This document shows, one piece after another, positions 9,320-62,490 of a stretch of 64,000 bases of DNA (position 1 is the first letter of the stretch; every line of letters starts with the position of its first letter). A program made the translations under genes and the position numbers. Origin of the DNA: Jaapia argillacea MUCL 33604 (Eukaryota > Basidiomycota > Agaricomycetes > Jaapiales > Jaapiaceae); the NCBI GenBank assembly GCA_000697665.1, contig KL197713.1, positions 1,452,593-1,516,592 on the forward strand, read 5' to 3'. The notes under the pieces were generated by a model. The model had not been told where the DNA came from, did not search any database, and was given only the letters and a program-made list of their open reading frames with translations.

Positions 9320-9770
9320 ACCCCGCCAATACCTCGGGTTCAAATCCTGCTGGACTCATACCGCGCACTTCGACGTTCGACAGCAATTTTCTGGTGATAC
9401 TATCCCCGCCAACAATACTGCAGGTTCAAATCCTACTGGACTCGTCCCATGCGCCTTCGACGTTCCAAATCAACATTCCGGTGATACTATCTCGCCAGCC
9501 ATACCGCAGGTTCAAATCCTGCTCGATGCTCGACTCATCCCGCACACCTTCGACATTCCACACCAAATTTCCGGTGATACTATCCCGCCAGCCTCACCGC
9601 AGGTTCAAATCCTGCTCAACTCGTCTCGCGCACCTTCGACATCCCAAATCAATGTTCTAGAGAAACCATGCCCCCTCATTTACCCCGGTTCAAGTCCTGC
9701 TCAAGTCGTCTCCCACATCTTCGAAGTTCCAAATCAATATTCCGGCGATGCTACCAAATCCTGCTGGACT
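9320..9770 (+). repeat. Minisatellite with tRNA B-box in each unit
   Basis: About five to six degenerate tandem units of roughly 86-93 bp. Each contains GGTTCAAATCC or a close variant (9337, 9423, 9509, 9602, 9687, with a partial one near 9752), followed by TGCT and a GAC-like triplet, then a segment reading like TTCGACGTTCCAAATCA. The core equals the T-arm (B box) of tRNA-Ser; the true tRNA-Ser(CGA) gene 0.7 kb downstream has the same GCAGGTTCAAATCCTGCTGG string. I see no A box or cloverleaf in the units, so they are not tRNA genes. They may have arisen by amplifying a tRNA 3' end. Confidence 0.75.
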
Positions 9771-10431
9771 CATCCCCCCACCTTCGACGTTCCGAATCAA
9801 TCACCCCGTTTCGTCGATGGTTAACCCCTTCCTTCTACCTCAGACTCATTGTTTCATGTTTCGACTATCAACTCTCCAACACTCGTCACCGTCTGTCCGA
9901 CATGGGTGCATGGAATGGATGCCGATGATACACTTTCTCTCCCTCTCTCCCCGGACCTTCCACCGTTTCGGTATGAGGCGTGGAACATGTTCGTCTCGCT
10001 CGCAGCGTCCTGCAGATGTCCATCTGGTGAGTTGATTAAGGTTCAAAGGGCTGAAACCGGTACCAGGTTACACATTCAGATTGCTTCCAGTTGAACGTTG
10101 AACCCCTCCTCCTTGTCAGTTCTTGGTTAAGAAGTTTAACTTCCAGTTGACCCCCATTCAGGGTTCCTTGATGCAATGCTGCACCCCAGTGGCTACGGAG
10201 TTTCCTCCGAAACTGACACTTCCTCGTAGGGATCACCTCGATCAGAATCTATCTATCTCTCCGTCTCACTTTAGGCATACTACCAATTCTCCCAAGCGGA
10301 TAGTTGCAGAAAAGTTGGGATGTCTGTGAGTTATCGAATACAGGCCACTATAGTTCACTCTTATTAACCTCTTCAGCCCTTTGATAATGAAAATAGTGAT
10401 CTATCTGGACTTCACCTGCATGCTGGTCCAT
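9771..10431. other. Intergenic stretch between minisatellite and tRNA gene
   Basis: No gene is recognised. Short open frames show no motifs and no splice-consistent partners. A loose inverted similarity (CCAGTTGAACG.. against ..CTTCCAGTTGA) occurs near 10090-10150. The region is likely degraded repeat or upstream flank of the tRNA. Confidence 0.4.
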
Positions 10432-39400: not shown

Positions 39401-41418
39401 CAGTACAAACCACCCCAACGCCACAGTTTACAACCAGAGTGTCAACGCCTTGTTGAAACAGACCTTGGCGTGTCATTTGGGCGAGGAATTGAAACCTCTG
39501 CTTTCTATAATTGGTGATGAGTTACCCCCCATGCCGCGCCAAGGAGAAGTGGAATTTGTTTATGGAGGTATGATCTCGCTCATCATTTCTACGCAAAAGT
39601 TGACACCCTAGAAGGCCCCCCTTGCCAATCCTTTAGCGGTGCAAACCATAATAAGGTGTGTTCCGATATTTTATGACTCCGCAACTGTTACTCATCCACT
39701 ATCCGCAGAGAGCTGACGACCTCCGGTACATCCTCTTTCGAGCGCTGGAGTTTCACGTTTGCTAATCGCCGCTGATCGGCATCCACTTCCGCAGGAGCTC
39801 GCTAATTTGTAACTTTATGTCTTGGGTTGATCATTACCGACCCAAGTATTTCCTCCTCGAGAACGTCCTAGGACTACTCAGTCATCGTGTTGGTGGTACC
39901 CAAGACGGCCGTCGCATCGTGGATGGTGTCAAGCAAGGAATGGTCAAATTCATATTGCGGGCAGCGACAAGTCTGCAGTGAGCAGGACCCTCTTTTCGAT
40001 GACAATGCTTATATGTTATGCGTTCCGAATTACAGATATCAGGTTCATGTCAAGGTTCTTCAAGCAGGTGACTACGGCTCTCCACAGTCGCGCCAGAGAG
40101 TCATATTCTTGGGTGCTATCCGGGATTGCCGTGTGCCCGAGTTTCCAATACCGATGTACTCTTTCCCTCGACGATCTTGGAAGAGCCTTATGGCTACAGG
40201 CGATGAAATTTGGCCAATATCACGAAATCCCAACGATACTACCTCCCGCTGTGCACCGTATCGCGGAGTGACTGTTAACGATGCCATTGGTGATCTAGTG
40301 AGTCACAAAAACTGTGAAGACGATTCGAATCGCTCATGTACTGACAACGAAAGCCGCCATATGATTGGTCAGTACCCGCGATTACTTATTCCACCTCCCT
40401 CACGTATCAGATTTTTTCAGGATCAATCCACACAATATCCTCAAGCAGACGAGGAAGGAGAAGGACGACGTAGCTGATCGCCAGGAGCAAGGAATTGATC
40501 AAGTAGAGGCAAGGAATTCGGCAGTCGTCACTTCGGGATATCAACAACCAGTCGATTATGCTTACCCCCCTCGGAACCGTTATCAAAGGGACCTTCGGGC
40601 TGGGGCAGGAGAGCAAGTATTTTATCATTACACCCGGTATGTGTTTCCTCACAGCTCAAAATCGAGACTTATTCTGGTCGTCCTAGTGCATTCGCCCCTC
40701 AGATTGTGGAGAGGTACACTTCAATATCGTGTCCAAGGAATCGTCAATCTTAATGAATGCTCCCGTTCCTAGAGTCATAGCAATCCCGCTTACTGCTGGG
40801 GCTGACCAATCGAGTACGCGACCCATAACTCATCACTTCATTGGTTAAATTTCTTCGTAGGTCTGCCTCAGCAACTGCGCGGAAACGATACTCTCAGGGG
40901 CGGCCAAAAGACCTACAAAGGTGGAGTCTCATGCAATAATATCCCATCATCCGAACTAACTGGTCTCCAGGTATGTACGGGAGGCTCGATGGCAAGGGGT
41001 ATTTCAGAACCGCCTTGACCGACGTCAAACCGAACACAAGTCCAGGCGGTGTTGTTCTGCATCCATCGGTAAGTGAGACTTAACGATTGCGTTTGGGTTC
41101 CTCACGTACCTACTCGGCACACAGCAAAAGCGAGTTATTACAGTCAGGGAATGCGCGCGAGCTCAAGGATTTCCGGACACCTACCGATTTAAATCGGTGG
41201 AATCGCAGGCCATCGGAGTTATTGCCGATGTAAGTCTCTTACAACTCTTCACTTTCCTTCGCCCTGTGGGCTTACATACCATCAACGTCACGTAGCAACT
41301 TCGTCAGATAGGTAATGCAGTACCTATCCCACTGGCCCGAGCACTGGGTCAATCCATCGGCGAATCCATGATGCTCGAATGGGAGGAGCGGCGAGAGGAG
41401 GGAAGTGTAGTGGTGTAA
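36413..41418 (+). CDS. DNMT1: DNMT1-type DNA (cytosine-5) methyltransferase
   Basis: This should methylate cytosine in DNA, most likely maintaining CpG marks in the nucleus. Order of parts: a Lys/Arg-rich start (MEPSRQAPKRTCRS), an acidic stretch (EDEDDDEDEEDEE), the RFTS replication-foci domain (VWIGTEFAWYLLRVPSRPYC), two BAH domains (about 37.93-38.46 and 38.54-39.05 kb), then the catalytic core. Catalytic motifs: I LELFSGAGGLSVGLE, IV GGPPCQSFSGANHNK with the active Cys, VI YFLLENVLGLL, VIII QSRQRVIFLGA, IX RVITVRECARAQGFPD, X RQIGNAVPIPLARAL. All key residues are present. No CXXC zinc finger is visible between RFTS and BAH. About 20 introns; several very small exons near 39.65-39.80 kb were checked by joining RADDLR to SSLICNF. 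The start could be slightly upstream. Confidence 0.9.
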
Positions 41419-43729: not shown

Positions 43730-44002
43730 GTGTGATTCCATGCTTCACTCCGTTAGATGGAAATGGACAGAGTGCGTGCAAGCTTGCGATTTGGTGTTGC
43801 ACGGGAAATAGGTCCGCATATACCCCTCCACCAGGATCATCTTCTCCCCTTCTCAGAGCGAACTATTAACTACCTGTGTAGCGTAACCGACTCGAGCGTA
43901 TATCCGCCTCTGCAAGGTTTATACACCCTACCCCATTTCAATGTGGACCAAGTCTCTAGCCCTCCATGCCATTTCACATGACATTGTCAACCACCCCCGC
44001 CG

Positions 44003-44009
44003 TATATAA
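44003..44009 (+). promoter_or_regulatory. TATA box of gene A, copy 1
   Basis: TATATAA lies about 76 bp upstream of the gene A ATG. The same string, in the same place, precedes copy 2, whereas sequence further upstream has drifted. Confidence 0.55.
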
Positions 44010-44078
44010 GTTCAACTTTCCCAATGCAGAAATTCCCCATCTTGAAGTTGCACCACTCCCAGATACACCACACACACA

Positions 44079-47000
44079 ATGCACAACCACCACTTCACAC
44101 CAATCACACCCACTCCACCCCTTCACCAGCCTTCCGACCTTCCCCCCACTCAGCCAATCCGATCCTTCAACGAATCCCGTCAACGATTCGCACAGAGGTC
44201 GGAGAAGTGGAGGAAGGCGAAGAAGTCTTGGGAGGCGCGTATGGAGTGGAAGCATCCCCCTTCCCTGCCTCTTTCGTCAAGGAACATCGCACTTTCCAGA
44301 TGTATCGCTTCGATTCGACGTCAACACGAACACGAACACGATCGGGAATATGTGATGCTCCAAAGGAGAAAGCGAGGGTTGGATGAGCCCAGCTTCGATG
44401 AAGGGATGTTTGACCTTCACGATTTTGGGCCCCCCACTGTCCGGCGTCGTACAGCCTTGGTAAGTTCTCCCGTGTATTCATATGTGTTAGTTGGTGGCTG
44501 ATAATTGGGTAGTTTGGCCAGAGAGCATGGCCTGACGATGACTATATTCGATGGTTCGAGTCCCAGTCCATCCAACCCAAGGTTCAGGTATGTTACCGTG
44601 GTCCTCCAATCGCGCCCTTTACTGATGACGATCCCAAGGTTGAATCTCAGTCTCTTGTTCTTCAAGCTGCAAATGTTCCTCCGGCACCAGGAAGTCGATC
44701 ATCTGGCGCAGGCTCATATCACCCAAAGCAGCATCACCCTCCCACTCGACCTGTCCGATCCTTTACCGAATCCCGTCAACGATTCGCCCAGAGGATGGAC
44801 CTGTGGAGAAAGTCAATCAAGAAACTGCTCGAGTCGCACCAGGATTGGAACTACCCACATTCCCGACCAGCTTCGTCAAGAAATGCCGCCATGTCACGGT
44901 TTATCGATTCAGTTCAACGTCATCTTGAGCTGCTGGACGATGGCGAGTTTGCAGAGCTTGGGGAAAGGCGGAGGAGACCAAGGGTGGATGAGCCGATCAT
45001 CGTTGGAGGTGTTCTTGACCTTCATGAGTTTGGACCACCTACTGTCCGGCGTCGCACAACCTTAGTAAGTGTTCGTTTTTGAACCTGCGTTGTATTCCCA
45101 GTGGCTGATGGTTCGATAGTCTTATCAGAGGTCATGGGTTCATGACGAGTATACCTGATGGTTCGATCGTCGGTCGTGCCAGCAACAGATTGAGGTGAGT
45201 TTTGTCGCGCTTCCTTACGCGCCCCCCGAGCTCACGAAACACATATAGGTTAACATCGCACCTCCGATTCACCAGGGCGATACTCCTTCACGACAACCTG
45301 TCGCTACGCACGATCTAATTGACGATATGCCTGAGCTTATACTTCCGCCTCCCATGATCCCCTTCGACAACGCAGAAACGCTCAACTCTGTCGCGGAGGA
45401 ATCCAGAGTGTCATCTCCCGATGCCAACGCGTATGTCCCATCAGATGACTACCTCGATGACCAGGCCACCGTGACAACGTCGGAGTTGGACGATGAGGAG
45501 TCGATGGTCGTAGTGGAGGACATTGAACCTGTGGCGTGTCCAACAACGGCATTCACAACGATGCCTGAGGAAGACGCGCCGCTCGACCTTTCTACCGACT
45601 CAGTTCTCGAAGTCGAATGCATCCTCGCGGACAACTTGGACGAAGATAGCCAGGATTTTTCGGCCTTCAGCCCGCTTCCCTCCTTCTGCGATGTCTCTGC
45701 TGCTTCACCAATGGAGGAAGACGATGCCTCGTGGGAGTCTTTCATCGACGCTCCGCCCAAAGTAGCAGATGTTCCCCTGTTTCTTCCGGAAGACGACGAC
45801 GACGACGACGACATGGAGACCTTGAGCCAGGAACCTTCCCTTTACGACGTCCCCGGTAGCCTTACCCTAGGCGAAGCTTCGCCTCTTACCGTAGCTTCCG
45901 ATCATGGCGAAAACTGCCTTCCAATGCTGGACACCGTCTCATGCATCACCCCTGATGTTGACTTGGACCGTTCTATCGACGTTGGTTCTCCATCGCCGCA
46001 AATTCTCCCAGATCTCATCATCGACCCCAGCCCATTGGATGATGATTCGGATGATTTGCTCGCATCCATGGACAGGGGTATATTCGGTCCTTCCGACGAG
46101 GTTGAGAAGGGGAATTCCTCCGATATCGAGGTGCACTGGTCAAATTCGTCGATAGAGGTTGTTGGTGAAGAGGACTCGACCTATCCTTCCTCCGACAACT
46201 CTGGCTTTGGAGTCCCAAATCTCCTCGTCGACAATTCGGGTCAAGACACCCGAGACGACGCAACCCTCGATCCGCTGGCCTCAATTTACAACGTTATGTC
46301 TAGCCTGACACTACGAGAAGATTCGCCCGATGAATCCACCGACTCTCGTCTCAAAGGGAAACAATTGGATCAAGGTCCCGATAATCCGATTGCGTTCAAT
46401 CCCCTGCATAACTCGACCGAAGTGTTAGAAGAGTCTCTCGGCGACTCCTTTGGTCCACCGAGTCTCCTTCTCGAGCTCAGCCCCGTTTCATCCGTCAGTC
46501 CACAACTACCATCTGATTCATGCTGCACTATCTGATACTCTCCAAGGGTGCTATTCTACAGACTCCAGTAATTCACGACCCTGTCAGCAACGCAGGATTC
46601 CTGGACGGCATAGAACATATGTTCGCATTAATGGCTATGGGGGGCGCAAGTGAGGCGACCTCACCTGCGTCTGAACAGCAAGGCGAAGGTGAGTTCAGAG
46701 TGCAGGTGGAAATTTGAATGCTTCTAACGTCGAGGTCGCTTGGACAGCTTTGGATACGACAAGCCTCGGCGAAGTCAACGGGTCTACCGATATCTCGATT
46801 GCAGATATCGCCGATGACGAAGTCATTCCTTCAGCAACCAGTTCAATGGGTACGTACACGATTACCTTTGTCCGAAAACACCTCTGATTCTGGTCATCCT
46901 TTAACCCCACCTCCAGGGAACATGAGTGTGGCGAGCCACTTAGACTTGGAAGGCTCCGACCGGTCGCTGGAATTGGGTATCACGAGCCCTTGTGACGATG

Positions 47001-47573
47001 GAGTTCCCTTCCCCACCCTCCGTCCCAGCATCAGCACTTCTGCGGAGATGGATATCGCCTACGACCTCACCAATGACGACCGCTCGCCGAAGTTCATCAG
47101 CGGAGTCGATCTCAGGAGTCACCTAGAGGATGACGGACGTCCCACACACGACGGTGGCCATTCGTCCACCACCTCGATGCAACCTGGTACCTGGCGAGCC
47201 GAAAGTTCTGTCACCGAGAGTGAACCGGCTGCTTGCATCCACGACAGTGCATCTGTCGGGTTCACGGAGGGTACACATGTTGGACGCGAGGAAGACCACG
47301 GTAAGTTTCTTTCTCCTCGCTGATTCCCGAGCTCACCTGAAGTCCATCAGAGTTGGCGGGTAGCAGTCGGGAACGCCCATCCACTCGTTCTCTCCAAGAC
47401 ATTACCAACTTACCTCCTACGACCCCACGACGAGCCCCACCGGCAGAGGTTAGTCATATCCACCATCGCAATCCTCACTTGTTGTGCTTACGGTCGAACA
47501 GGTCGACACGTTCTTACAATCGATCCTCGATGGCTTTCAGAAAGATGACGAGGCCATCGATGTCGAGCAATGA
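44079..47573 (+). CDS. Gene A copy 1: duplicated-module protein of unknown family, with internal stop
   Basis: I do not recognise the family. Exon 1 (44079-44461) and exon 2 (about 44511-45064) each encode a related module of about 150 residues: RSF(N/T)ESRQRFAQR, a charged helix, SSRN.A..R.I.S..R, then DLH(D/E)FGPPTVRRRT, a phase-0 intron, and QR.W..D.Y.RWF. Exon 3 (45120-45194, 25 codons) would complete the second module but has TGA at 45156-45158 where copy 2 has CGA (Arg). Exon 4 (45249 to about 46500) encodes an acidic, Pro/Ser-rich region rich in Asp-Asp and PLDLSTDS-type strings, open throughout. Later exons end VDTFLQSILDGFQKDDEAID then VEQ. Either the protein is truncated after about 340 residues or exon 3, whose length divides by three, is skipped. 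No signal peptide or membrane segment. Confidence 0.6.
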
Positions 47574-48196
47574 CGAGATTTACGTTTTGACGAGACAACG
47601 CAGTAAGTGCCTTCACACCAGCATGCTTTGGGCGTTCTTTGTTAACAACCTATGCTGTAGACCAGATTCACTCTCCAATTTCCAACTATACCCCAATTTA
47701 CGTCGATGTGCGGCGCATTTCCACCGATTTCACCTCGGACTTCGATTTTCCTCTCTTTACCCAATATCGTCCAACGAAGGCACCTTTTTCTTCTCCTCAT
47801 TAGTGAAACCACACCATTCTATAGTTGCATACGAACTTTTTTATTTCCTTCTTCGAGATTCACGAACCATCGGCGTTATTCGTCACTTTTTTTTACCTCC
47901 TCGATTCAGTAGATTTTTTGCCATTCGCCTTTCCACATCTCTTCTTCCCCTCAACGGCCATCCAAACCGCAGTTCCCGTCCTGCCACTCCAAGGCCGCCT
48001 TCCACATTCGCACTCCAGCCACACTTCGGGATCGAACTCATCCCACCGGACCTCAATGCCTTCTGCCCATTGCGATCTCCAGTCCAATTCGCATCCCAAG
48101 CATTCCCATACAATCACACGACCAAGACGTGATTCCCGTCGCTTCAAATGCAAGACCTAAATACCACGTAGTTCTCGCGTCCTACTGGGTATCCCT
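47574..48196. other. 3' flank of gene A, left arm
   Basis: Pyrimidine-rich sequence downstream of the gene A stop, matched in the right arm at about 58.05-58.65 kb. Open frames here are low-complexity Ser/Phe/Leu/Pro frames and are not called as genes. Confidence 0.4.
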
Positions 48197-49540
48197 TTGC
48201 TTGGAGGACGTTCAGATCCATCCTCAAGCATGACCAACCATCCTTGTGCCATCATCTTCGACCAAGCTTCAAGTACCCCTAGCCCAGAACGGTGGCTTGA
48301 TTCTCGCGTCTCTGCTCCCCATCACTTGCTCGCTTCAAACCGCTTCTCTCTGCCCGGCGCCCCATCAACTGTTTCTGCCCAACCCCCCTCTCTCTGTGTC
48401 CTCCACGTCTAGCTCCACAGTTCAACATCTGGCTTCTCTGCCTTGTCTACGCTACTCCTGCTCGCTTTGCTGCGCCTTCTCTGGTTCCAAACTCGTCCCA
48501 CACGCCTCTCCTCAACCCTCGGCTTCGTCGTGGCCTGCACCTCATGGATCGGGATCAAGGCCTTGTCCTCGGAACTTGAAAGTCGTCGGATGCTGGTGAA
48601 ACCAACTGATGTTGTGGTAAGAACTGATGTGGAGCTCTAACCTTTGTGGTGATGCAGGGTACTGAGACGTGGCTGGCTTTAGCGGGCGGCACCGGGCACT
48701 CTCGAGGCGGAATCACCGGGCCGATGGTCGACCATCCTCGCTGAAGCATTTTTTGGCACTGGGTGAGTGAATGTCGGGTTCTTGCCTTGCAAACTCTGGC
48801 TGACTTGACGTGAAGACACGGCCGCTCTGTTTGCTGTCAAGGTCGAGGATCTGTCGAGTGGTGCGTCTAAATCTATGTTCGGTAAGTTTGTCCTTACTCT
48901 TCCTTGTCGCTGCTGCTGACCTCGTATTCCCTCTTTCCGGAGGGCGATACGATCTTCCAAGGTCGCATCGCCCTCCACCGGCAGTGCTCTCGGCTGGGTA
49001 AGCGAGTTGACCCCAGCCCGACCTTGATATTGGACAGGTAAGCCCTTTGTCTCATTGAAGATGGATCGCACGTTGACCTCGCCTCAGATGTAGGATCCTA
49101 GCGTTTCCATGCCGTGACCATATAGCTCGACCGCCCGCACGGTGACGCCAATCGAGTAGTGCCCTTCAACGCCGCTGCCCATGCCTAGCCATAGTCGAGG
49201 ACGGATCGCGTCGTCGCATTGGTAAGAGGGAAGCGGAGGTTCTCACCGCCGACCTTGTCTGTTGGTGGAACTAACTTCTAGCGGGGCTCTATGAGGCGAG
49301 GCTCGTGTGGATCTTTCAACTCCACGCTTCGATCTCGTTCAAATCCACGTCTTCGACAAGGTGCCGGGCCTCAACCACATCACTGGAAGGTCAATGGAAG
49401 CCTATGGTTCCGATCGGGGCTCTAATCCTCGACGACAGGGTTCACATTCGAGCTCAGACGAACGTATCGCCGTCGCCAAAACCTATTCAATTCCAATTTA
49501 AGCGCAACGACAGGGCCAGTCGGGTTCAGGTTTGAGCAAA
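48197..49540 (+). pseudogene. Gene C remnant, left arm (unrecognised)
   Basis: The right arm shows a clearer version. Here an exon-like segment ending LVKPTDVV is followed by an intron-like GTAAGAACTG..TGATGCAG and then GTETWLALAGG, which soon loses the frame kept in the other copy. Further blocks reading AALFAVKVEDLSSG (near 48825) and VQIHVFDKVPGLNHITGRS (near 49330) are also shared by both arms. It looks like a decaying host gene of unknown function. Limits are approximate. Confidence 0.35.
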
Positions 49541-50508
49541 TCTTAACAGCAGTACTCAGGGATCTCAAGGGCATCAAACGAATATACGGAGTCTATACAA
49601 TTAGGTTGGAGAAGCCACGACGTCAAGGGGCCAAGGACATTGAAGTGTAACAGGAGCGTCAACGGACACAATTGAGCCGAGATTATAGAGGTGGGAATGG
49701 GGGTATCGAGGTGGGGTTGGCTCGGAGGTGGATTTCAGGTTGGTTGGACTGGACATTGGGGTGGCGGTGGTTGAGCGGTTTTGCGATTTTGCGGTTTTGC
49801 AATTCCGTGGTCGGGGTTATAAGGTTCAATGGTTGAGGCTCAGCAAGTGCGTGGTCGGTTGGTGGCCAGTCGGTTTATTGGGTTTGGATGTAGGGGCGAT
49901 TTCAAAGTAGTAGTCGGCCAATGGAGGCTCACGCAATTTTTCTTTTCCTTAGATAGACGCATCACATCGTAGACTTGTGTAAAGGTTTATTAGTCTTATA
50001 CCCGATTATTATTGTCACTGTATTGCAAAATTGGAATACCACATATTATCTGGACATTGGTGGGACAACAACTGCCTTTGAGGAGGTGCATGGTGCAACG
50101 AAACGACAAGGGTGGGATCAATAATAATTTTCATATAAATGTGAACCACTGGTTGGATAATCCTTCAGGCGTTAAGGAGGGCAGAGAGAGATGGAGCGGC
50201 GGAGTGAATGAAGGCCGCGGCGACGAGGCCAAGGTCTCTTCATCACTGTGCAGCAGGCAAAAGTGTTCCAGCCGGAGAGATGGGGTTTACGTTGTGCACG
50301 TATACAAGAAAGGTAGTCCTGAAAGTCAAGACTTGAGAACAAAGCCGATGCATTTGGCACTGTATTATCGGCGTCGTGCCAATGAGGTCCGATAAAGGGG
50401 GGTGTTGGTTGGTCAATGACTGGTGGCCGCATGTACGAGAGAGGGAGAAGGAGTGGGAAAGGACGCCTCAGGTTTTCTGTCCCCGCCGATCCTGTCGGTG
50501 TTCATGCC
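49541..50508. other. Arm sequence without a supported gene, left arm
   Basis: Includes a GGTGG/GGTTTT-rich stretch near 49690-49830 and a segment near 50090-50185 that has matches in the right arm and, once more, at 52893-52985. No coding sequence is supported. Confidence 0.4.
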
Positions 50509-50893
50509 TCAAGCTTCGAAGGCAGGGCGGGGTATCTGCTCTAGCTGGATTACTTTGATCTCTTCTGAGGAAATAGGTTGTAGCCAGCAGATAAATGTCG
50601 CCTTCCAAAGCCGCTCACCATCTTTCGGCGCACCCTTAGAGCAGACGGTGTTGTTTGGGGGATATCTGATCGGGCGCCCATAGAATGAGAACAACCACGT
50701 ACACGTCTGTCTATCCTCAGAGGAGGGTGTCCGGACTTTGCAATTCTGGTGCTGCGAATGCGTCTCGGAAAGTATGGATTTCTGGAACGTCCCTGAGGCG
50801 TGTAGGAGCCAGTTCCATGGCAAGAACTTCTAATTGAGGATCGTCAAAGCGGTAAGACGCACTCCTCACTGGGGCTACTCCTTTCGCTTCTGG
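50509..50893 (-). pseudogene. Gene B 3' end, left arm (frame disturbed)
   Basis: On the minus strand, VRSASYRFDDPQLEVLAMEL and LRDVPEIHTFRDAFAAPELQ read toward the end of one frame, then GRPIRYPPNNTVCSKGAPKD continues in another. After a canonical intron (GTGAGC..TTTCCTCAG) the terminal exon is EEIKVIQLEQIPRPAFEA and a stop. The right arm keeps the same layout. I do not recognise the protein. The change of frame between the first two blocks and the absence of upstream exons suggest a broken or partial gene. Confidence 0.45.
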
Positions 50894-51080
50894 CCCGGGA
50901 GTGGAAGGGACATCTTGGAAATGCCACGACGGCTCCTGGAGAGGATTTCAAGCGAGAGCGTATTCGCCATATTTTACAGTACTCTCCCAGGTCCAAATCA
51001 CCTCTAGGATGGGAAGCCATGCTGGGGCCCTACCTGGAGTTGTGGATGAATATCAGTACTATTGGGGAAATCCGGCGGAT

Positions 51081-51571: not shown

Positions 51572-52248
51572 GGATAATGCTATTGGGAAACCCCAGTTGT
51601 TGCTGAAAACCCGGGTTTAGCGAGAAACCGCTAAGTTGACGAAACCTGACGAAAGTCAGGAGGGTTGTTGATCCCCAAGTCCAGGGATTTCGGGCGGCGT
51701 CAAGCCCGAGGGTGCCTTGGTTCTAGTTGGCGAAGATTGATGCCGGGATTTCCCGAGAAGCGCCAACCACATGAGCTCAGTGACAGCGACGCGAACGTCG
51801 GTGAGCACAGCGGCAAAGTAGGCGCGCTCGTTGTCATCGACAACGTTAAAATCAAAGACAAATTGACTTAAAAAAAATTGTACACTGGTGATAAAGTGAC
51901 ATATGTGTGCATTTAGTTATCAAATGGTGAATCAGATTTCCAATTTATCAACTTTCAGCAAAGAAACTGCTGCTGTCGTCAATGACAACGAGCGCACCTA
52001 CTTTGCCGCTGTGCTCACCAATGTTTGCATTGTTGTCATCGAGCTCATGTGGTTGGCGCTTCTCAGGAAATCCCAGCATCAATCTTTGCCAACTAGAACC
52101 AAGGCACTCTCGGGCTTGACGCCACCCGAAATCCCTGGACTCGGAGATCAACAACCCTCCCTGACTTTCGTCAGGTTTTGTCAACTTAGCGGTTTCTCGC
52201 TAAACCCAGGTTTTCAGCAACAACTGGGGTTTCCCAATAGCATTATCC
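51572..52248. mobile_element. Mutator-like MITE with long terminal inverted repeats and 9-bp target duplication
   Basis: The ends GGATAATGCTATTGGGAAAC and their complement define inverted repeats of about 270 bp each, 51572-51843 and about 51975-52248, around a short AT-rich centre. Identity between the two arms is high (roughly nine in ten by eye). The flanks ACCACAGAG at 51563-51571 and 52249-52257 are identical, a 9-bp target duplication typical of Mutator elements. There is no transposase; the two open frames seen in the arms are mirror images of each other and are not genes. It is inserted in the outermost bases of another palindromic element. Confidence 0.85.
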
Positions 52249-53057: not shown

Positions 53058-54686
53058 TCATCGTAATACAAGTTTCGAGTTCGTCCGTGGTTGGCGGATT
53101 CGATGCGAACCCGAAGAGGCCTTGCGAGTTAACTGAGCTCTGCGTAGTTCTTCATCTATACGCCACATCCCTTTCACAAAAGAGTCGAGGTCTAGGCTTC
53201 CTTGACCAGCTGGATCGCATTCACTCCTGCGGCGTGATACATCCCTAAGTCGATGTTCCAAGAGAACCAACAGAAGCACTGACCATATATCCTTGAGCTT
53301 CCGGCGCTCAAGCTTAGATGCGCTCCATATATGCTGCACAATAAGTCCCTCCAATCTCTCATCCACCCCAACTTCCTCGAATTCCGACTCAGCTTCCGAA
53401 GTGGGTGACAAGGGGTGCTCCTCCGGATTAGTGATCAAATCAACGGAAAGTCCTCTCCAACCCGCAGCAGATCGTTTATTACGCGTCGCAGCCGGAGATA
53501 ATGGTGACGAAGCCTTCCGGCGATTTAGGACGTTGGAGATGAACACGGATTCGTAACGTTTCCTCGCTGCGGGAGGGATAGGAGTGGGTCGTTTGGTTTG
53601 GATACTGCCAAATGTGCTAATGCTGGTTCGGGAAGCCGTGGTGCCTATACTGAGGATGGAGGAACGATCGGATGCAGAGGTGGAAGCGACTGAAGTACGG
53701 GCTGAATTTGGACGTGAGCGAGTTGTAGAAGGTGGTGGCGGTGGTGGCCGGCGGGCGGTCGAGGGAGCGGGGGTGGCGCGAGGGGAAGTAGGTAAGGAAG
53801 CGGAAGCGGCGGGAGGAGATGAGGAAGGGGTCGAAATCGTGGGGGGTTTTGGTCGTTGTGGGAGTTTCGGTGGTTCGGGCCTCTTTTCCCAGTTATGGAC
53901 GATGGCTGCGCTCGGGCTGATAGCAGAGGCAGAGATATTCTCATACGACTCGTCCAAGCTATCCACCGAGGCTGCATACCGATCCATAGGATATGTCGCG
54001 AGATGATTTGTGATGGATGTCGGAGTGCCAACGTCTGTTCCACCATCAGAGGACAGTGAGATAGAGTGGAACGAAGACACTGATGATGCGGCAGCGTGTC
54101 CTCCCTTTCGAGAGCCGCTTGAGCCCGTATCCAGATGAGCCAATGGTGGATATGTATGATCCACCGTCAAGGAATCCGAACGAGGCTTGGAAGTCGAACT
54201 CGACGCACTAGCTGTACGCAGTGAGTTATATGACGGTTTCCGAGGTGGGAGTGGCGGAGCACGGATGCGGGACTTTGGAGGAGACTCCAAATTGATGAGG
54301 GGAGCAGTATTTGGCCTGGAGGGTAAGATCGAATCTGAAGGGAGTCGAGCTGATGATCCTGTGCTGTTGGAAGTAACCTTTCCGTTCGTGTGCCCATTAT
54401 GGAGATGACCGCCGGGACCATCCTCCACCACCCAGTCCTTCAAGTCAATCAAAGACGTTTTCCGACCCAAATTTGGGGGTGAGGGTGAGGGAGATACTGT
54501 CGTCGGCTTTGGTGTGGATGGGATTATAGGTGAGAACGACAGAGCGCTGGCTGGGATGGGTGTTTCGAGGAGATTTACAGAAACTTTGGGAGGAAATTTT
54601 GGAGGAGAACGGGGAGAAGAGGAACTGGCTGAATTCATAGACTCGAAAGCAGAGATCCTGGACTGGAGGGTCGTTGATGGTGCCAT
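53058..54686 (-). CDS. IRS4/TAX4-type EH-domain protein
   Basis: Irs4 and Tax4 of yeast carry a C-terminal EH domain and regulate the PI(4,5)P2 phosphatase Inp51 and autophagy-scaffold recruitment. Here about 400 residues of Ser/Pro-rich disordered sequence, with polyproline runs (RRPPPPPP, KLPQRPKPP), precede KRYESVFISNVLNRRK. Then comes an EH domain: IVQHIWSASKLERRKLKDIW, one 57-bp intron (GTCAGT..GCAG), and SECDPAGQGSLDLDSFVKGM, WRIDEELRR. The gap between DIW and DPAGQGSLD matches the EF-hand-like loop. The ATG at 54686 gives MAPSTTLQSRISAFESMN. Total about 520 residues. It lies in the spacer between the inverted arms and is the only intact gene there. Symbol withheld because IRS4 and TAX4 are not separable here. 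Confidence 0.8.
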   Translation of the reverse strand: MAPSTTLQSRISAFESMNSASSSSPRSPPKFPPKVSVNLLETPIPASALSFSPIIPSTPKPTTVSPSPSPPNLGRKTSLIDLKDWVVEDGPGGHLHNGHTNGKVTSNSTGSSARLPSDSILPSRPNTAPLINLESPPKSRIRAPPLPPRKPSYNSLRTASASSSTSKPRSDSLTVDHTYPPLAHLDTGSSGSRKGGHAAASSVSSFHSISLSSDGGTDVGTPTSITNHLATYPMDRYAASVDSLDESYENISASAISPSAAIVHNWEKRPEPPKLPQRPKPPTISTPSSSPPAASASLPTSPRATPAPSTARRPPPPPPSTTRSRPNSARTSVASTSASDRSSILSIGTTASRTSISTFGSIQTKRPTPIPPAARKRYESVFISNVLNRRKASSPLSPAATRNKRSAAGWRGLSVDLITNPEEHPLSPTSEAESEFEEVGVDERLEGLIVQHIWSASKLERRKLKDIWSVLLLVLLEHRLRDVSRRRSECDPAGQGSLDLDSFVKGMWRIDEELRRAQLTRKASSGSHRIRQPRTNSKLVLR

Positions 54687-55109
54687 CGTGCAGAATGTCG
54701 ACCGTAATAAATGTGAATCTGTGCAGGCCTGCTTGCCTCTCCAATTATGGTATGGCCAGCCACGTGGCATTTTGATGGCAGGTCCCTTGACCTATTTTAG
54801 GGGAAAATTCATCGAAATTCGAGACCACCATCCCTCCCGAATGTGAAGGCTCCCGCCGCCTTTCAGCCCTATACAGCATGTGTCAGAAAACGGGGACCGA
54901 CTAGCTTGATGTTTCAGCTTCATTTTGACAGACCGATTCCATCCCATCGTTCACCGCACTTTTTTTTTATCGGAGCTGTCGGAGCGAATTCGCTCTCCTC
55001 GTGAATATCTTTCGAGACGGCTCCATCTTCGTATTGTCAAGTGGTAAGTATGTTGGTGTTGATGGCCCTACCGCTGATAGCCGCTCACTGACCGATTCTC
55101 TGCATGCCC
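54687..55109. other. Spacer between the EH-domain gene and the right arm
   Basis: Holds the promoter of the EH-domain gene. Near 54975-55042 an exon-like stretch reads ELSERIRSPREYLSRRLHLR and meets a GTAAGT donor. It could be an upstream exon of gene B copy 2, but nothing upstream supports it. Confidence 0.35.
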
Positions 55110-55297
55110 ACCACTCTGGGCCGGAAATATTTTCTTTCCCACCACTCCAGGTGGGGCGGCACGGCTTCCCGTCCTAGAGACAACTTAGACATGGAAAAGT
55201 GCTGGAAAAGTATGGCGAACTCGCTCTTGGTCCTCTCCAGGAGCCGTCATGACATTTCCAAGATGTCCCTTCCTCTCCGGAATCGAAAGGAGTCGCC

Positions 55298-55663
55298 CAA
55301 GTGAGGAGCGCGTCTTACGACGATCCTCAATTAGAAGTCCTTGCCATAGAATTGGCTCCTACACACCTCAGGGACGTTCCAGACATCCATACTTTCGACA
55401 CCTTCGCAGCATCAGGAGTGCCAAGTCCAGATGCCGTCTCATGTATGTTCTCTGAGGATAGACATTCGTGTGCGTCGTTGTCCTCCTTTTATGGGCGCCC
55501 GATCAGATATCCCCTAAACAACACTGTCTGCTTCAAGGGTGGGCCGAAAGACGGTGAGCTGCTTTGGAAGACGACATTTCTATGCTGACTACGACCTGTT
55601 TCCTCAGAAGAAATCAAAGTAATACAGCTAGAGCAGATACCCCGCCCTGTCTTCGAAGCTTAA
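55298..55663 (+). pseudogene. Gene B 3' end, right arm
   Basis: VRSASYDDPQLEVLAIELAP, LRDVPDIHTFDTFAASGVPS, then FYGRPIRYPLNNTVCFKGGP in one open frame, a GTGAGC..CAG intron of about 54 bp, and the terminal exon EEIKVIQLEQIPRPVFEA. This copy reads through more cleanly than the left arm, so it could still be part of an expressed gene, but I found no convincing start exon. Family not recognised. Confidence 0.4.
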
Positions 55664-56606
55664 AGCGTGAAGGATCTGGACGGACAGAAACACTGGGGCG
55701 TCCTCTCTCACTCCTTCTCCTCTCAAGCATATCTGGCTATCAGCCATTGACCAACCGACACCTCATTTATCGGGCCTCACGACGTTGATGATACAGTGCC
55801 AATTGTGTCGACTCCGTCCAAGGCTTGCCTTTCGGGGCTACCTTTCCTGTATACGTGCACAACGTAAACCTCATCTCTCCGGCTCGATTGCCGTTGCCGC
55901 TGCGCGGCGACGATGAGAACTTTGCCTGGTCACCGCGGTCTTCATTCATTCCCACCACTCCATCTCACTCTCCCCTCCTTAACATCTAGAGGATTATCCA
56001 ACCACCGGTTCACATTCGTATGAAATTCTCCTTGATCCCGCCCTTGCCGTTTTCTCGCACCATGCCCCTACGTCTCTGGTCCTTGACTTGTTCTTCTCAA
56101 AAGCAGTCTTTGTCCCACCAAATGTCCAGATAATATGTGGTATTTCAATATTGCAATACAATGATAGTAGTAATAGGGTATAAGACTAGTAAACCTTTAC
56201 ACGAGTCTACGATATGATGCGTCTATCTATGAAAAGAAAGTTACGGAGCCTCAGTCCATTGGCTGACTACTACCCTAAAATCGCTCTCCATCCGAGCCCA
56301 ATAAACCGACTGGCCGCCAACCGACCACGCACTTCCTGGCCCTCACGGCCTCAACCATCAATCACTACGACCCCGACCACGGAACCGAAAGACCCCACAG
56401 CTGCTCAACCACCACCACCACCCTGTTGCCTTGCACCCCAATGTCCAGTCCAACCAGCCTGAAAGCCACCTCCGAACTGACCCCACCTCGACACCCCCAT
56501 TCCGACCTCTACACTCTCGACCCAACTGTGTCCCTTGATGCTCCTGTTACATTTCGATGTCCTTGGCCCGCTGAGTCGTGACTTCTCCAGCCCGGTTGAT
56601 TAGACT
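55664..56606. other. Arm sequence without a supported gene, right arm
   Basis: Mirrors 49541-50508. A Pro/Thr-rich open frame near 56214-56462 is the complement of the GGTGG-rich stretch and is not called as a gene. Confidence 0.4.
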
Positions 56607-58050
56607 TCATATGATCGTTTGATGCCCTGGAAACCCCTGCGTCCTGCTGCTCGAGGACTTTACTCGAACCTGAACTTGACTGGCCCTGTCGTTGTGCTTA
56701 GATTGGAATTGAATAGGTTGTGGCGAGGGCGATGTGTTCGTCTGAACTAGAATGTGAACCCAGTTGTCGTGGTCCTTATCGGAACCATAGGCTTCCCTTG
56801 ACCTTCCAGTGATTTGGTCGAGGCCCAACACCTTGCCGAAGACGTGGACTTGAACGAGGATCAAAGCGTGGAATTGAGAAATCCACACGAGCCTTGCCTC
56901 ATAGAGCCCCGCTAGAAGTTAGTTCCACCAATAGACAAGGTCAGCGACGAGAACCTCCGCTTCACTCTTACCAATGCGACGACGCGATCCGTCCTCGACG
57001 ATGGCTAGGCATGGGCAGCGGCGTTGAAGGGCACTGCTCGTTAGGCTTCACCATGCGGGCTGTCGAGCTATATGGTCACGGCATGGAAACGCTAGGATCC
57101 TACGTCTGGGGCGAGGATCAACATGTGATCCAACGTCAATGAGATAAAGGGGCTTACCTGTCCACTATCAAGGTCGGGCTGAGGTCAACTCGCTTACCCA
57201 GCAGAGGGCACTGCCGGTGGAAGGCGATGTGACCTTGGAAGATCACATCGCCCTCCGAAGAGAGGGGATAGGAGGTTAGCAGCAGCCACAAGGGGGAGCA
57301 AGAAGAAACTTACCGAACATAGAGAGCGACGAACCACTCGACAGATCCTCGGCCTTGACAGCAAACAGAGCGGCCGCGTCTTCACGTCAAGTCAACTAGA
57401 GTTTGCAAGGCAAGAACCCGACATTCACTCACCAATTCCATAAACATGCTTCAGGGAGGATGGTCGACCATCGGCCTGGCAGTTCCGCCTCGAGAATGCC
57501 CAGTGCTGCCCACCATAAAGCCAGCCACGTCTCAGGACCCTGCATCGCCACAAAGGTTAGAGTTCCACATCAGTCCTTACCACGACACCAGTTGGTTTCA
57601 CCAGCATCCGACAGCTTTGTTCTGAGGACAAGGCCTTGATCCCGATCCATGAGGTGCGGGCCACGATGAAGCGTAGGCGGCGAAGTCGAGGGGTGAGGAT
57701 AGGCATGTGGGACGAGCTTGGAACTAGGGGAGGAACAGCGAAGCGAGACAGGGAGTAGTGTAGACAAGGCAGAGAAGCCAGATGTTGAACTGTAAAGCTA
57801 GACGTAGAGGACAGAGAGAGAAGAGGGTTGGGCAGATGCAGTTGGTGGGACGCCGGGCAGAGAGAAGAGGTTTGAGGCAAGCAAGTCATGAAGTCATAGC
57901 AAGCGGAGACGAGAGAATCAAGCCACCGTCCAGGGCCAGGGGTACTTGAAGCTTGGTCGAAGATGATGGCACAAGGATGGTTGGTCATGCTTGAGGATGG
58001 ATCTGAACGTCCTCGGAGCAAGGGATAGCCAGTAGGGACGCGAGAACCAT
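56607..58050 (-). pseudogene. Gene C remnant, right arm (better preserved, unrecognised)
   Basis: On the minus strand an exon ending LVKPTGVV is followed by an intron (GTAAGGACTG..GCGATGCAG, about 43 bp) and GPETWLALWWAALGILEAEL, PGRWSTILPEACLWNW, then AALFAVKAEDLSSGSSLSMF and, near 56850, VQVHVFGKVLGLDQITGRSR. The Trp-rich block is plainly coding in style and is out of frame in the left arm. The next junction (after LWNW) gives no clean in-frame splice, so this copy also looks damaged. Limits approximate. Confidence 0.4.
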
Positions 58051-58654
58051 GTGGTGTTGAGGTCTTGCATTTGAAGCCTGGAATCATGGCTTGGTCGTGT
58101 GATTGTGTAGAAATGTTTGAGATGCGAACTGGAGTGGGGATCGCCACGGACAGAAGGCATGGAGATCCGGTGGGACAAGTTCGATCCGGAAGCGTAGCTG
58201 GGGTGCGAATGTGGAGGGCGGCCTTGGAGGACGGGACGGGACCTCGGGGTTGGACGACTGTTGGGGGGAAGAAGAGACGTGGAAAGTTTGGAGGCGAATG
58301 GCAAAAAATCTATGGAATCGAATGTGTGAAAAAATGGCGAATGAAGCCAATGGTTCGTGAATCTCGACGAAGAAGAAAATGAAAGATTTCGTGTGCAACT
58401 ATAGAATGGTGTGGTTTCAATAATAAGGAGAAAAAAAAAGTGCCTTCGTTGGGGGCGGTATTGGGTAAAGAGAGGAAAATCGAAGTCGAAGGTGAAATGG
58501 TTGGAAATGCGCCGCACATCGACGTAAACTGGGGTATAGTTGGAAATTGGAGAGTGAATCAGGTCTACAGCGCGGCTCGTTAACCAACAACCCCCAATGA
58601 ATGCTGGTATGAAGGCACTTACTGCGTTGACATCTTGTGAAAACGTAAATCTCG

Positions 58655-61600
58655 TTATTGCTCGACATCGATGGCCTCGTCATCTTTCTGAAAGCCATCC
58701 AGGATCGATTGTAAGAACGTGTCGACCTGTTCGAATGTAAGCAAAAAGTGAGAATTGCGATGGCGGATATGACTAACCTCTGCCGGTGGGGCTCGTCGTG
58801 GAGGAGTCGTGGGCGGTAAATTGGTAATGTCTTGGAGAGAACGAGTGGATGGGCGTTGCCGACTGCTACCCACCAACTCTGATGGGACTTCAGGTGAGCT
58901 CCAGGGAATCAGCGAGGAGAAAGAAACTTACCGTGGTCTTCCTCGCGTCCAACATCTGTACCCTCCGTGAACCCGACTGATGCACTGTCGTGGATGCAAG
59001 CAGCCGGTTCACTCTTGGAGGCAGAACTCTCGGCTCGCCAGGTACCAGGTTGGATCGAGATGGACGAATGGCCACTGTCGTGTGTGGGACGTCCGTCATC
59101 CTCTAGGTGACTCCTGAGATCGACTCCGCTGATGAACTTCGGCGAGCGGTCGTCATTGGTGAGGTCGTCGGCGATATCCATCTCCGCAGAAGAACTGCTG
59201 GGACGGAGGGCGGGGAAAGGGACTCCATCGTCACAAGGGCTCGTGACACCCAATTTCGGTGACCGGTCGGAGTCCTCCAAGTCTGAGTGGTTCGCCACTC
59301 TCATATTCCCTGAAGGTGGGCTAGAATCAGAGGCGCTTCGGACGAAGGTAATCGTGAACGAACCCGTTGAACTATTTGCTGAAGGGATGACTTCGTCGTC
59401 GGCGATATCTGCAACCGAGATGTCGGTGGACCCGTTGACTTCACCGAGGCTTGTCGTATCCAAAGCTGTCCAAGCGACCTCGACGTCAGAAGCATTCAAA
59501 CTTCCACCTGCACTCTGAACTCACCTTCGACTTGTTGTTCAGACGGAGGTGAGGTCGCCTCACTTGCGCTCCCCATAGCCATTGATGCGAACAAATTTTC
59601 TATGCCGTCCAGGAAACCTGTGTTGCTGACAGGGTCGTGAATTACTGGAGTCGGTAGAGTAGCAATCTGAGACAGGAGCATCAGATGGCGCAGCATGAAT
59701 TAGATGGCAAATGTGAACTCACGGATGGTACGGGGTTAGGTTCAAGGAGAAGACTAGGTGGGCCAAAGGAGTCGCCGAGAGATTCTTCCAACACTTGGGT
59801 CGAGTTATGCAGAGGATTGAACATAATCGAATCATCGGAACCTTGATCCAATTGTTTCCCTTTGAGAACAAAGTCGGTGGATTTATCGGGCGAATCGTCT
59901 CGCAGTGTCAGGCCCGACATAACGTCGTAAATTGAGGCGAGCGGATCGAGGGTTGGGTCGTCTCGGGTGTCTTGACCCGAATTGTCTGCGAGGAGATTTG
60001 GGACTCCAAAGCTAGAGTCATCGACAGAAGAACAGGTCGATTCTCCTTGATCAGCCACCTCTGTAGATGAACTTGACGGATGCACCTCGATATCGGAGGA
60101 ATTCCCCATCTCAACGTTCTCACCGGAAGGACCGAACATGCCCCTGTCCATGGATGCGAGCAAATCATCCGAATCATCATCCAATGGGTTAGGGTCGATG
60201 ATGAGGTCCGGGAGAATTTGCGGTGGTGGACAACCAAAATCGATAGAATGGTCCAAGTGAATAACAGGGGTGATAGGTGAGACGGTGTCCGACATTGGAA
60301 GGCAGTGCTCGCCATGATTGTAAGGGACGGCGAGAGATGAACCTTCGCCTAAGGTGAGGCTATCGGAGATGTCGTGAAGGGAAGGCCCCGGGCTGAGGAT
60401 CTCCATATCTTCGTCGTCATCTTCCGGAAGGAATAAGGGAACATTTGCTACTTCGGGCGTAGAGTCGATGGAAGACTCCGGGGTAGCATCATCTTCATCC
60501 ATTGGCAAAGCAGCAGGGACATCGCAGAGGGAGGGAAGCGGGCTGAACGCCGCAAAATCCTGGCTATCATCGTCCGAGTTGTACGTGAGGATGGTTTCGA
60601 CTTCGAAGACTGAGTCGGTAGAAAGGTCGAGCGGCGCGTCTTCCTCTGGCATCGTTGTGAATGCCGTTGTTGGACACGCAGAAGGTTCTATTTCCTCCAT
60701 TACGACCATCGACTCCTCATCGCCCACCTCCGATGTTGCCGCGCTGGCTTGGTCATCGAGGTAGTCAGCCGGTTGGACATATGGGCTGGCATCTACAGAT
60801 GCGATTCTGGATTCCTCTGCGACAGAGTTGAACGTTTCTGCGTCGTCGAAGGAGATCATGGGAGGTGGAAGTGTAAGCTCAGGCATATCGTCAATTAGAT
60901 CGTACGTAGCCACAGATTGTCGTGAAGGAGTATCGCCCTGGTGAATCGGAGGGGCGATGTTAACCTTCATGTGTTTCGTCAGTTAAAGAGGCTCGTAAGG
61001 AGGCGCGACAAAACTCACTTCAATCTGTTGCTGGCACGATCGACGATCGAACCATCGGGTATACTCGTCGTGAACCCACGACCTCTGATAAGACTATCAA
61101 ACCATCAGCGACTGGGAAATACAATGCAGGATCAAACAAGAATACTTACCAAAACTGTTCGTCGCCGGACAGTAGGTGGTCCAAACTCATGAAGATCAAG
61201 AATACCCCCAACGATGATGGGCTCATCCACCCTTGGTCTCCTCCGCCTTTCCCCAAGCTCTGCGAACTCGCCATCGTCCAGCAGCTCAAGATGACGTTGA
61301 ACCGAATCGATAAACCGTGACATGGCGGCATTCCTTGACGAAGCTGGTCGGGAATGAGGGCAATTCCAATCCTGGTGCGACTCGAGCAACTTCTTGGTTG
61401 ATTTCCGCCACTGATCCATCCTCTGGGCGAATCGTTGACGGGATTCGGTAAAGGATCGGACGGGTCGAGTGGGAGGGTGATGTTGTTTTGGGTGATATGA
61501 GCCAGCACCAGATGATCGACTCCCTGGTAACGGAGGAATGTGTGCAGCTCGAAGGACAAGAGACTGAGATTGAACCTTGGGATCGTTATCAGTAGAGGGC

Positions 61601-62134
61601 GTAACTGGAGGAACACCGTAACCCACCTGAACCTTGGGTTGGATGGACTGGGACTCGAACCATCGAATATAGCCATCGTCGGGCCACGGTTTCTGGCCAA
61701 ACTACCTAATTATCAGCGACAGCCGACGCGTATGAGTATACGAGAGAACATACCAGGGCTGTACGACGCCGGACAGTGGGCGGCCCAAAATCGTGAAGGT
61801 CGAACATCCCTTCATCGAAGCCGGGGTCATCCATCCCTCGCTTTCTCCTTCGGAGCATCACATATTCTCGATCGTGTTCGAGTTCGTGTTGACGTCGAAC
61901 CGAAGCGATACACCTAGAAAGTGCTATGTTCCTTGACGAAAGAGGCAGGGAAGGGGGATGCTTCCACTCCATGCGCGCCTCCCAAGACTTCTTCGCCTTC
62001 CTCCACTTCTCCGACCTCTGTGCGAATCGTTGACGGGATTCGTTGAAGGATCGGATTGGCTGAGTGGGTGGAAGGTCGGAAGGCTGGTGAAGGGGTGGGG
62101 TGGGTGTGATTGGTGTGAAGTGGTGGTTGTGCAT
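58655..62134 (-). CDS. Gene A copy 2: duplicated-module protein of unknown family, apparently intact
   Basis: Mirror of copy 1 with all exons open, about 1,000 residues. Module 1 (exon 1, 62134 to about 61752) and module 2 (exon 2, about 61702-61146) share RSF.ESRQRFAQR, W(R/ )KA.K..E, SSRN.A(L/M)SR.I.SV.R, DLH(D/E)FGPPTVRRRT; the parts after each phase-0 intron read QKPWPDDGYIRWFESQS and QRSWVHDEYTRWFDRRS. Exon 4 (to about 59722) is acidic (EEDAPLDLSTDSVFEVE, FLPEDDDEDMEILSPGPS, DDDSDDLLASMDRGMFGPS). The last exons carry LQDITNLPPTTPPRRAPPAE and finish DAFL-like SILDGFQKDDEAIDVEQ. No signal peptide, membrane helix or known catalytic motif; a nuclear or cytosolic scaffold-like protein is a guess. 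Preservation of every frame argues it is a real gene. Confidence 0.7.
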
Positions 62135-62203
62135 TGTGTGTGTGGTGTATCTGGGAGTGGTGTAACTTCAAGATGGGGAATTTCTGCATTGGGAAAGTTG
62201 AAC

Positions 62204-62210
62204 TTATATA
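62204..62210 (-). promoter_or_regulatory. TATA box of gene A, copy 2
   Basis: TATATAA on the minus strand about 70-76 bp upstream of the ATG at 62134, matching the copy 1 position. Confidence 0.55.
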
Positions 62211-62490
62211 CGAGGGGTGGTTGAAAATGTCATGTGAAATGGGATGGAGGGCTAGAGACTTGGTCTACATTGAAATGGTGCGCGCATTGGAAAAGTCTTG
62301 CGGTGGTGGGTGTACGCCCGAGAGGGTGCACTTTGCGGAGAGTTAATACGTGAGTCTGAGAGGGGGGGAGAAGGATATGGTGGATCCTTGTGGTAGGGGA
62401 AGTGCGTACCTATACCGCATGCAACATCATAGCTCGAGCTTCGACGAGATCGATCCAATTCCAAGGTGATTGGGTGAAGCATAGAATCTA

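Follow-up and report, generated by a model that had tools for sequence, protein, structure and literature searches.

Two inverted copies of a constrained, internally duplicated orphan gene in Jaapia argillacea

Inverted arms and the genes they carry

The window analyzed here is a 64,000-nucleotide stretch of contig KL197713.1 from the basidiomycete Jaapia argillacea MUCL 33604. It contains two inverted arms that span 7.4 kb and flank a 4-kb centre, and each arm carries a copy of the same gene, designated gene A in the left arm and gene B in the right arm. The gene model was derived by comparing one arm with the other, which yielded seven introns of 50-56 nt that are GT-AG in both arms. An eighth intron, of 51 nt, is very probable; with it, gene B comprises 9 exons that encode a predicted protein of 1016 aa, consisting of two basic modules and an acidic tail of 697 aa. 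A TATATAA box lies 76 nt upstream of the ATG in both arms. The features are as follows.

43734..51045, plus strand: inverted duplication, left arm (85% identity to the right one)
55139..62488, minus strand: inverted duplication, right arm (85% identity to the left one)
44079..44459, plus strand: gene A exon 1, a 26-aa Pro-rich tail, then the module 1 body from 44157
44460..44512, plus strand: gene A intron 1, phase 0, 53 nt, after RRRTAL
44513..44587, plus strand: gene A exon 2, 75 nt, module 1 tail (FGQRAWPDDDYIRWF...)
44588..44638, plus strand: gene A, very probable stopless intron, 51 nt, phase 0, GTATGT...CTGAT...AAG
44639..45064, plus strand: gene A exon 3, linker, then the module 2 body from 44753
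45065..45119, plus strand: gene A intron in module 2, phase 0, 55 nt, at the same module column as intron 1
45120..45194, plus strand: gene A exon 4, 75 nt, module 2 tail, TGA at 45156-45158
45249-46493, 46547-46649, 46706-47300, 47351-47448 and 47502-47573, plus strand: gene A last five exons, acidic tail
61754..62134, minus strand: gene B exon 1, start codon, module 1 body from 62056
61627..61701, minus strand: gene B exon 2, 75 nt, module 1 tail
61576..61626, minus strand: gene B, very probable stopless intron, 51 nt, phase 0
61150..61575, minus strand: gene B exon 3, linker, then the module 2 body from 61461
61019..61093, minus strand: gene B exon 4, 75 nt, module 2 tail, intact
60964-59723, 59666-59564, 59507-58932, 58878-58778 and 58726-58655 (stop), minus strand: gene B last five exons, 697-aa tail with a net charge of -110

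Near 46690, a candidate intron of 17 nt was set aside in favour of a GT-AG intron of 56 nt (46650-46705), which leaves the frame unchanged.

The 51-nt stretch (44588-44638 in A, 61626-61576 in B) is open in frame, and the preliminary description had taken it as part of a single second exon, a model that should very probably be revised. We read it as an intron because of its position after a 75-nt exon, its likeness to an intron, and the raised divergence of its would-be residues. It lies directly 3' of the first 75-nt exon, just as an intron follows the other one, and resembles that intron in a four-row alignment judged by eye. Its donor is GTATGT in A and GTGGGT in B, it ends in AAG, and a branch-like CTGAT begins 17 nt before its end. 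Seven of its 17 would-be residues differ between the arms, versus 13/167 in the remaining exon (Fisher p 0.0006 for a stretch picked after looking). Six GT...AG candidates with a branch site occur in that exon in both arms, and all of them lie over this stretch. When gene B exons 1, 2, 4 and 6 (seven-intron numbering) were scanned for in-frame stretches, 45-69 nt in length, that combine a good donor with a branch site and AG, the only donor recovered was that of the 51-nt stretch, with ends giving 51 nt or, alternatively, 63 nt.

The two copies appear to differ in integrity. In module 2 of gene A, a TGA (45156-45158) replaces the Arg codon present in gene B and in the first modules of both genes; the motif RWF had been proposed for this second unit of gene A, yet the stop falls at its R. 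The copies also differ by 1 nt in length near 46875, after which the frame of A closes. As read from the assembly, gene A is thus broken by the TGA and by a later frameshift, and gene B is intact, although a sequencing error may lie behind the TGA or the 1-nt difference. RIP-type mutation as the source of the stop is unsupported as a general process: C-to-T differences seen from arm A number 79/888 in CG, 56/906 in CA, 72/961 in CC and 58/823 in CT, so that CpG stands only slightly above the other contexts.

The arrangement of two inverted arms, 85% identical, around a 4-kb centre invites the view that the arms are the inverted repeats of a mobile element or that the gene is a selfish duplicate. 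We regard this as very unlikely. The open frame in the centre (53061-54791, minus strand) is a different one and lacks a Pfam match, no transposase was found among the 18 stretches scanned against Pfam, which cover part of the window, and an ordinary segmental duplication suffices to explain the arms.

The surroundings have further features of their own. The inner arm halves (47574-51045 and 55139-58654) are 73-94% identical in 100-column steps, reaching 93-94% near 49105-49300; the one long ORF examined there (47341-48129) has no Pfam match. The frame between the arms encodes 577 aa, is Ser/Pro-rich, and has a C-terminal stretch that, as we take it, recalls an EH-domain protein. Also in the centre, 51572-52248 consists of nested short inverted repeats, with arms that are 90-98% complementary, and looks like the remnant of a hairpin-forming mobile element. 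A C-5 cytosine DNA methylase domain (39872-40474, plus strand; Pfam E 3.6e-8) lies upstream of the duplicated locus, at a distance of about 3 kb, and short imperfect direct repeats at 9341-9801 fall into families of 86, 89 and 47 bases that are 69-84% alike.

The repeated module and the duplication of its exons

The N-terminus of the encoded protein carries a module of about 125 aa that is repeated. The preliminary description had reported this repeat in gene A (44079-45194, plus strand), together with the signature FGPPTVRRRT and a total of four modules across both arms. Each of these points held: two copies lie in gene A, and two lie in the inverted gene B (62134-61019, minus strand). Modules 1 and 2 of gene B are identical at 67/129 positions (BLASTP, 121 bits), and their Smith-Waterman score of 323 compares with a maximum of 54 among 500 shuffles. 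In the alignment, the segment DLH(D/E)FGPPTVRRRT is present in all four copies, as are the blocks RSF.ESRQRFAQR and SSRN.A.SR.I. A tblastn search of the whole window with the gene B protein revealed no additional module, the best match outside genes A and B having an E of 0.86.

The intron position said to be conserved within the unit is so: a phase-0 intron follows RRRT(A/T/V)L at the identical alignment column in all four units, and the intra-module introns of units 1 and 2 also align as similar sequences. The introns that flank the unit are likewise phase 0, the 51-nt intron being the inferred one, and the unit is therefore symmetric (0-0). Duplication of the module as exons, as originally proposed, stands in this form; the accompanying picture of a single exon-intron-exon stretch does not, since the unit comprises two exons and each of its two junctions carries a phase-0 intron. 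The module pair arose by tandem duplication of a unit composed of a body exon, a phase-0 intron, a 75-nt exon and a second phase-0 intron, the last of these being very probable in the first unit.

The two duplications differ in apparent age. Between modules, dS is 1.25 in gene B and 1.09 in gene A, close to saturation, and between the whole-gene inverted copies it is 0.199. These distances place the module duplication as old and the inverted copying of the gene, along with the sequence around it, as much later.

Selection on the gene and searches for relatives

Comparison of genes A and B gave a dN of 0.078, a dS of 0.199 and a ratio of 0.39, with p about 2e-15 for the contrast between nonsynonymous and synonymous change. 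Indels between the arms are multiples of 3 in 6/7 cases within the CDS, versus 7/40 in noncoding sequence. These patterns indicate that selection has preserved the encoded protein and that the gene is real and constrained. That the open frames are instead chance occurrences within a duplicated stretch is extremely improbable: the lack of a known family would fit that idea, but the ratio of 0.39, the frame-preserving indels, the seven GT-AG introns common to both arms, and the conserved stop position and TATA box all speak against it.

Constraint varies along the protein. The dN/dS ratios of the module exons are 0.17, 0.21 (a value that takes in the 51-nt stretch) and 0 (for the short last exon), and those between modules are 0.25-0.29. 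The largest tail exon gives 0.49. In seven-intron numbering, the small tail exon 5 exceeds 1 on the strength of one synonymous change, exon 6, taken in two parts, gives 0.29 and 0.75, exon 7 gives 0.18, and exon 8 gives 0. The longest runs identical between the arms in the largest tail exon measure 24, 18, 16 and 16 residues, a sum reached by 72 of 2000 shuffles; they are a mild hint of short motifs in the tail. Introns diverge unevenly, with differences between the arms at 39/214 positions in introns 1-4 and at 8/157 in introns 5-7 (Fisher p 0.0001), a pattern suggestive of a gene conversion patch.

No relatives emerged from the libraries searched. A Pfam scan produced no family above the gathering cut-off (DinB_2, 0.029; Glyco_hydro_80, 0.11; and Peptidase_S80, 0.34, all fall below it), a further Pfam search returned three families, none significant (best E 0.076; MeaB 0.16), and the whole gene B protein matched 0 Pfam families. 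As a control, 6/10 other ORFs of the window matched Pfam at E up to 0.01, five of them above the curated cut-off. NCBIfam yielded nothing significant (the top match, at E 0.02, scored 14 bits where the cut-off is 525), and the three PDB sequences returned at E up to 10 were also not significant (HalluTIM2-2, 0.09; JetC, 0.12; STIM1, 0.23). The original statement that the module matches no recognized domain is thereby upheld within Pfam, NCBIfam and PDB sequences, where the profile search gave no known family.

Contig scans were seeded by short peptide patterns, two for the module and prokaryote scans and six for the long-exon scan, one of the six containing residues partly read from intron 3. 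In viral contigs, five stretches matched a pattern from the module alignment and 26 matched one from the gene B long exon, and in prokaryote genomes 37 stretches matched; none of these was confirmed. A tblastn search of plasmids with exon 2 of gene B as earlier drawn also gave no match. Because such scans start from short patterns, only near relatives are within their reach, and because the contig and plasmid collections include few or no fungi, absence there says little about fungi; the gene is probably fungal. A literature search with module peptide strings, including FGPPTVRRRT, found no match, and a wider search returned nothing on such a gene in the portions of the sources covered. Relative to the libraries searched, genes A and B are thus best described as copies of a constrained, internally duplicated orphan gene.

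Charge, predicted fold and possible function

The predicted protein is strongly polarized in charge. The gene B modules carry net charges of +10 and +5, and the 697-aa tail carries -110, with a pI of 4.05; its commonest residues are Ser, Asp and Pro, and it includes Asp-rich runs. At matching places in the two gene B modules, there is one basic cluster each, RRRKR and RRRR, which we take to resemble nuclear import signals; the corresponding cluster in module 1 of gene A is QRRKR. RRRT, with the small or hydrophobic residue that comes next, fits a PKA-type consensus.

Structure prediction of a unit, which had been proposed at the outset, gave helices in the module bodies but no confident fold (pLDDT 57). 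Both AlphaFold2 models were poor (pLDDT 57 and 45), and prediction therefore does not establish a folded domain. Across the four module bodies, helices were predicted at residues 2-28 (pLDDT about 70-80) and 40-60 (about 67-69), with a short helix at 64-70 and the rest without confidence. A Foldseek search with the better model (102 residues, pLDDT 57) returned 0 matches in each of PDB and BFVD, a result that is uninformative given so low-confidence a query.

Our tentative first choice, held level with a cytoplasmic alternative, is that the gene B protein might be a lineage-restricted nuclear regulator, a reading drawn only from composition. Each module would consist of a two-helix body, an import-like Arg cluster, the invariant DLHxFGPPTVRRRT segment and a Trp/Tyr end. 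The basic modules would bind a partner of acidic character, for example DNA, RNA or a protein that is acidic or phosphorylated. The acidic tail would either bring in effectors or the transcription machinery, or fold back on the modules and inhibit them. Since RRRT fits the PKA-type consensus, phosphorylation at this site could switch the modules. Pfam recognized no DNA- or RNA-binding family in the protein.

The tail was compared with a relaxed rule for acidic activation domains, given in PMC10550315, by which 39-aa tiles have a charge of -9 or lower and 7 or more WFYL residues. By that version of the rule, 43 tail tiles qualify versus 15.5 expected from composition, a count reached by 24/500 shuffles; some qualifying tiles occur in 462/500 shuffled tails, so the property is largely one of composition. 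The best-scoring tile reaches 19, no more than the shuffle mean, and 170/300 shuffles attain that score. Hydrophobic residues cluster near acids only to a borderline degree (39/102 residues, reached by 54/1000 shuffles), and conservation between the arms is average in the qualifying tiles (123/162, versus 193/251 elsewhere in the exon).

Equally tentative is the possibility that the protein works in the cytoplasm as a lineage-restricted scaffold or signalling adaptor. It would then be disordered and charge-polarized, would dock a partner protein or membrane through its two modules, and would have no role in transcription. The disordered look of the tail composition, the basic modules with their poorly predicted fold, and the purely compositional basis of the nuclear reading are consistent with this alternative; the import-like Arg clusters, placed alike in each gene B module, argue weakly against it. 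The net charge of -110 over 697 aa and the Asp-rich runs would also suit a histone- or nucleic-acid-chaperone-like protein, in which the tail would mask basic ligands and the modules would anchor the protein, but this is unlikely, as the whole protein lacks any Pfam family match. A bolder and rather improbable proposal is that the module is the first of an undescribed fungal family of nucleic-acid- or protein-binding domains, and that truncated A acts as a modules-only competitor of intact B, which has modules plus tail.

If widespread in fungi, the module would constitute a domain not yet annotated, whose conserved core is clear, and two duplications of different age (dS about 1.1-1.25 for the modules and about 0.2 for the arms) reveal which residues have been kept. 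The locus resembles known cases of symmetric (0-0) exon-unit domain duplication in that its unit consists of two exons with phase-0 borders and preserved intron positions, and differs in that the repeated module matches none of the families searched. Like transcription factors with acidic activation domains, the gene B protein has a basic N-terminal part and an acidic tail; unlike them, it has no recognized DNA-binding domain. Some tail tiles fit the charge and WFYL rule of PMC10550315, in mild excess over composition.

Orphan genes of this sort are common in such genomes. The locus is one more constrained orphan gene, with no new kind of system evident: it shares with basidiomycete lineage-restricted genes the lack of a family match, the short introns and a disorder-type tail that changes faster, and is set apart from them by modules that are clearly constrained and internally duplicated.
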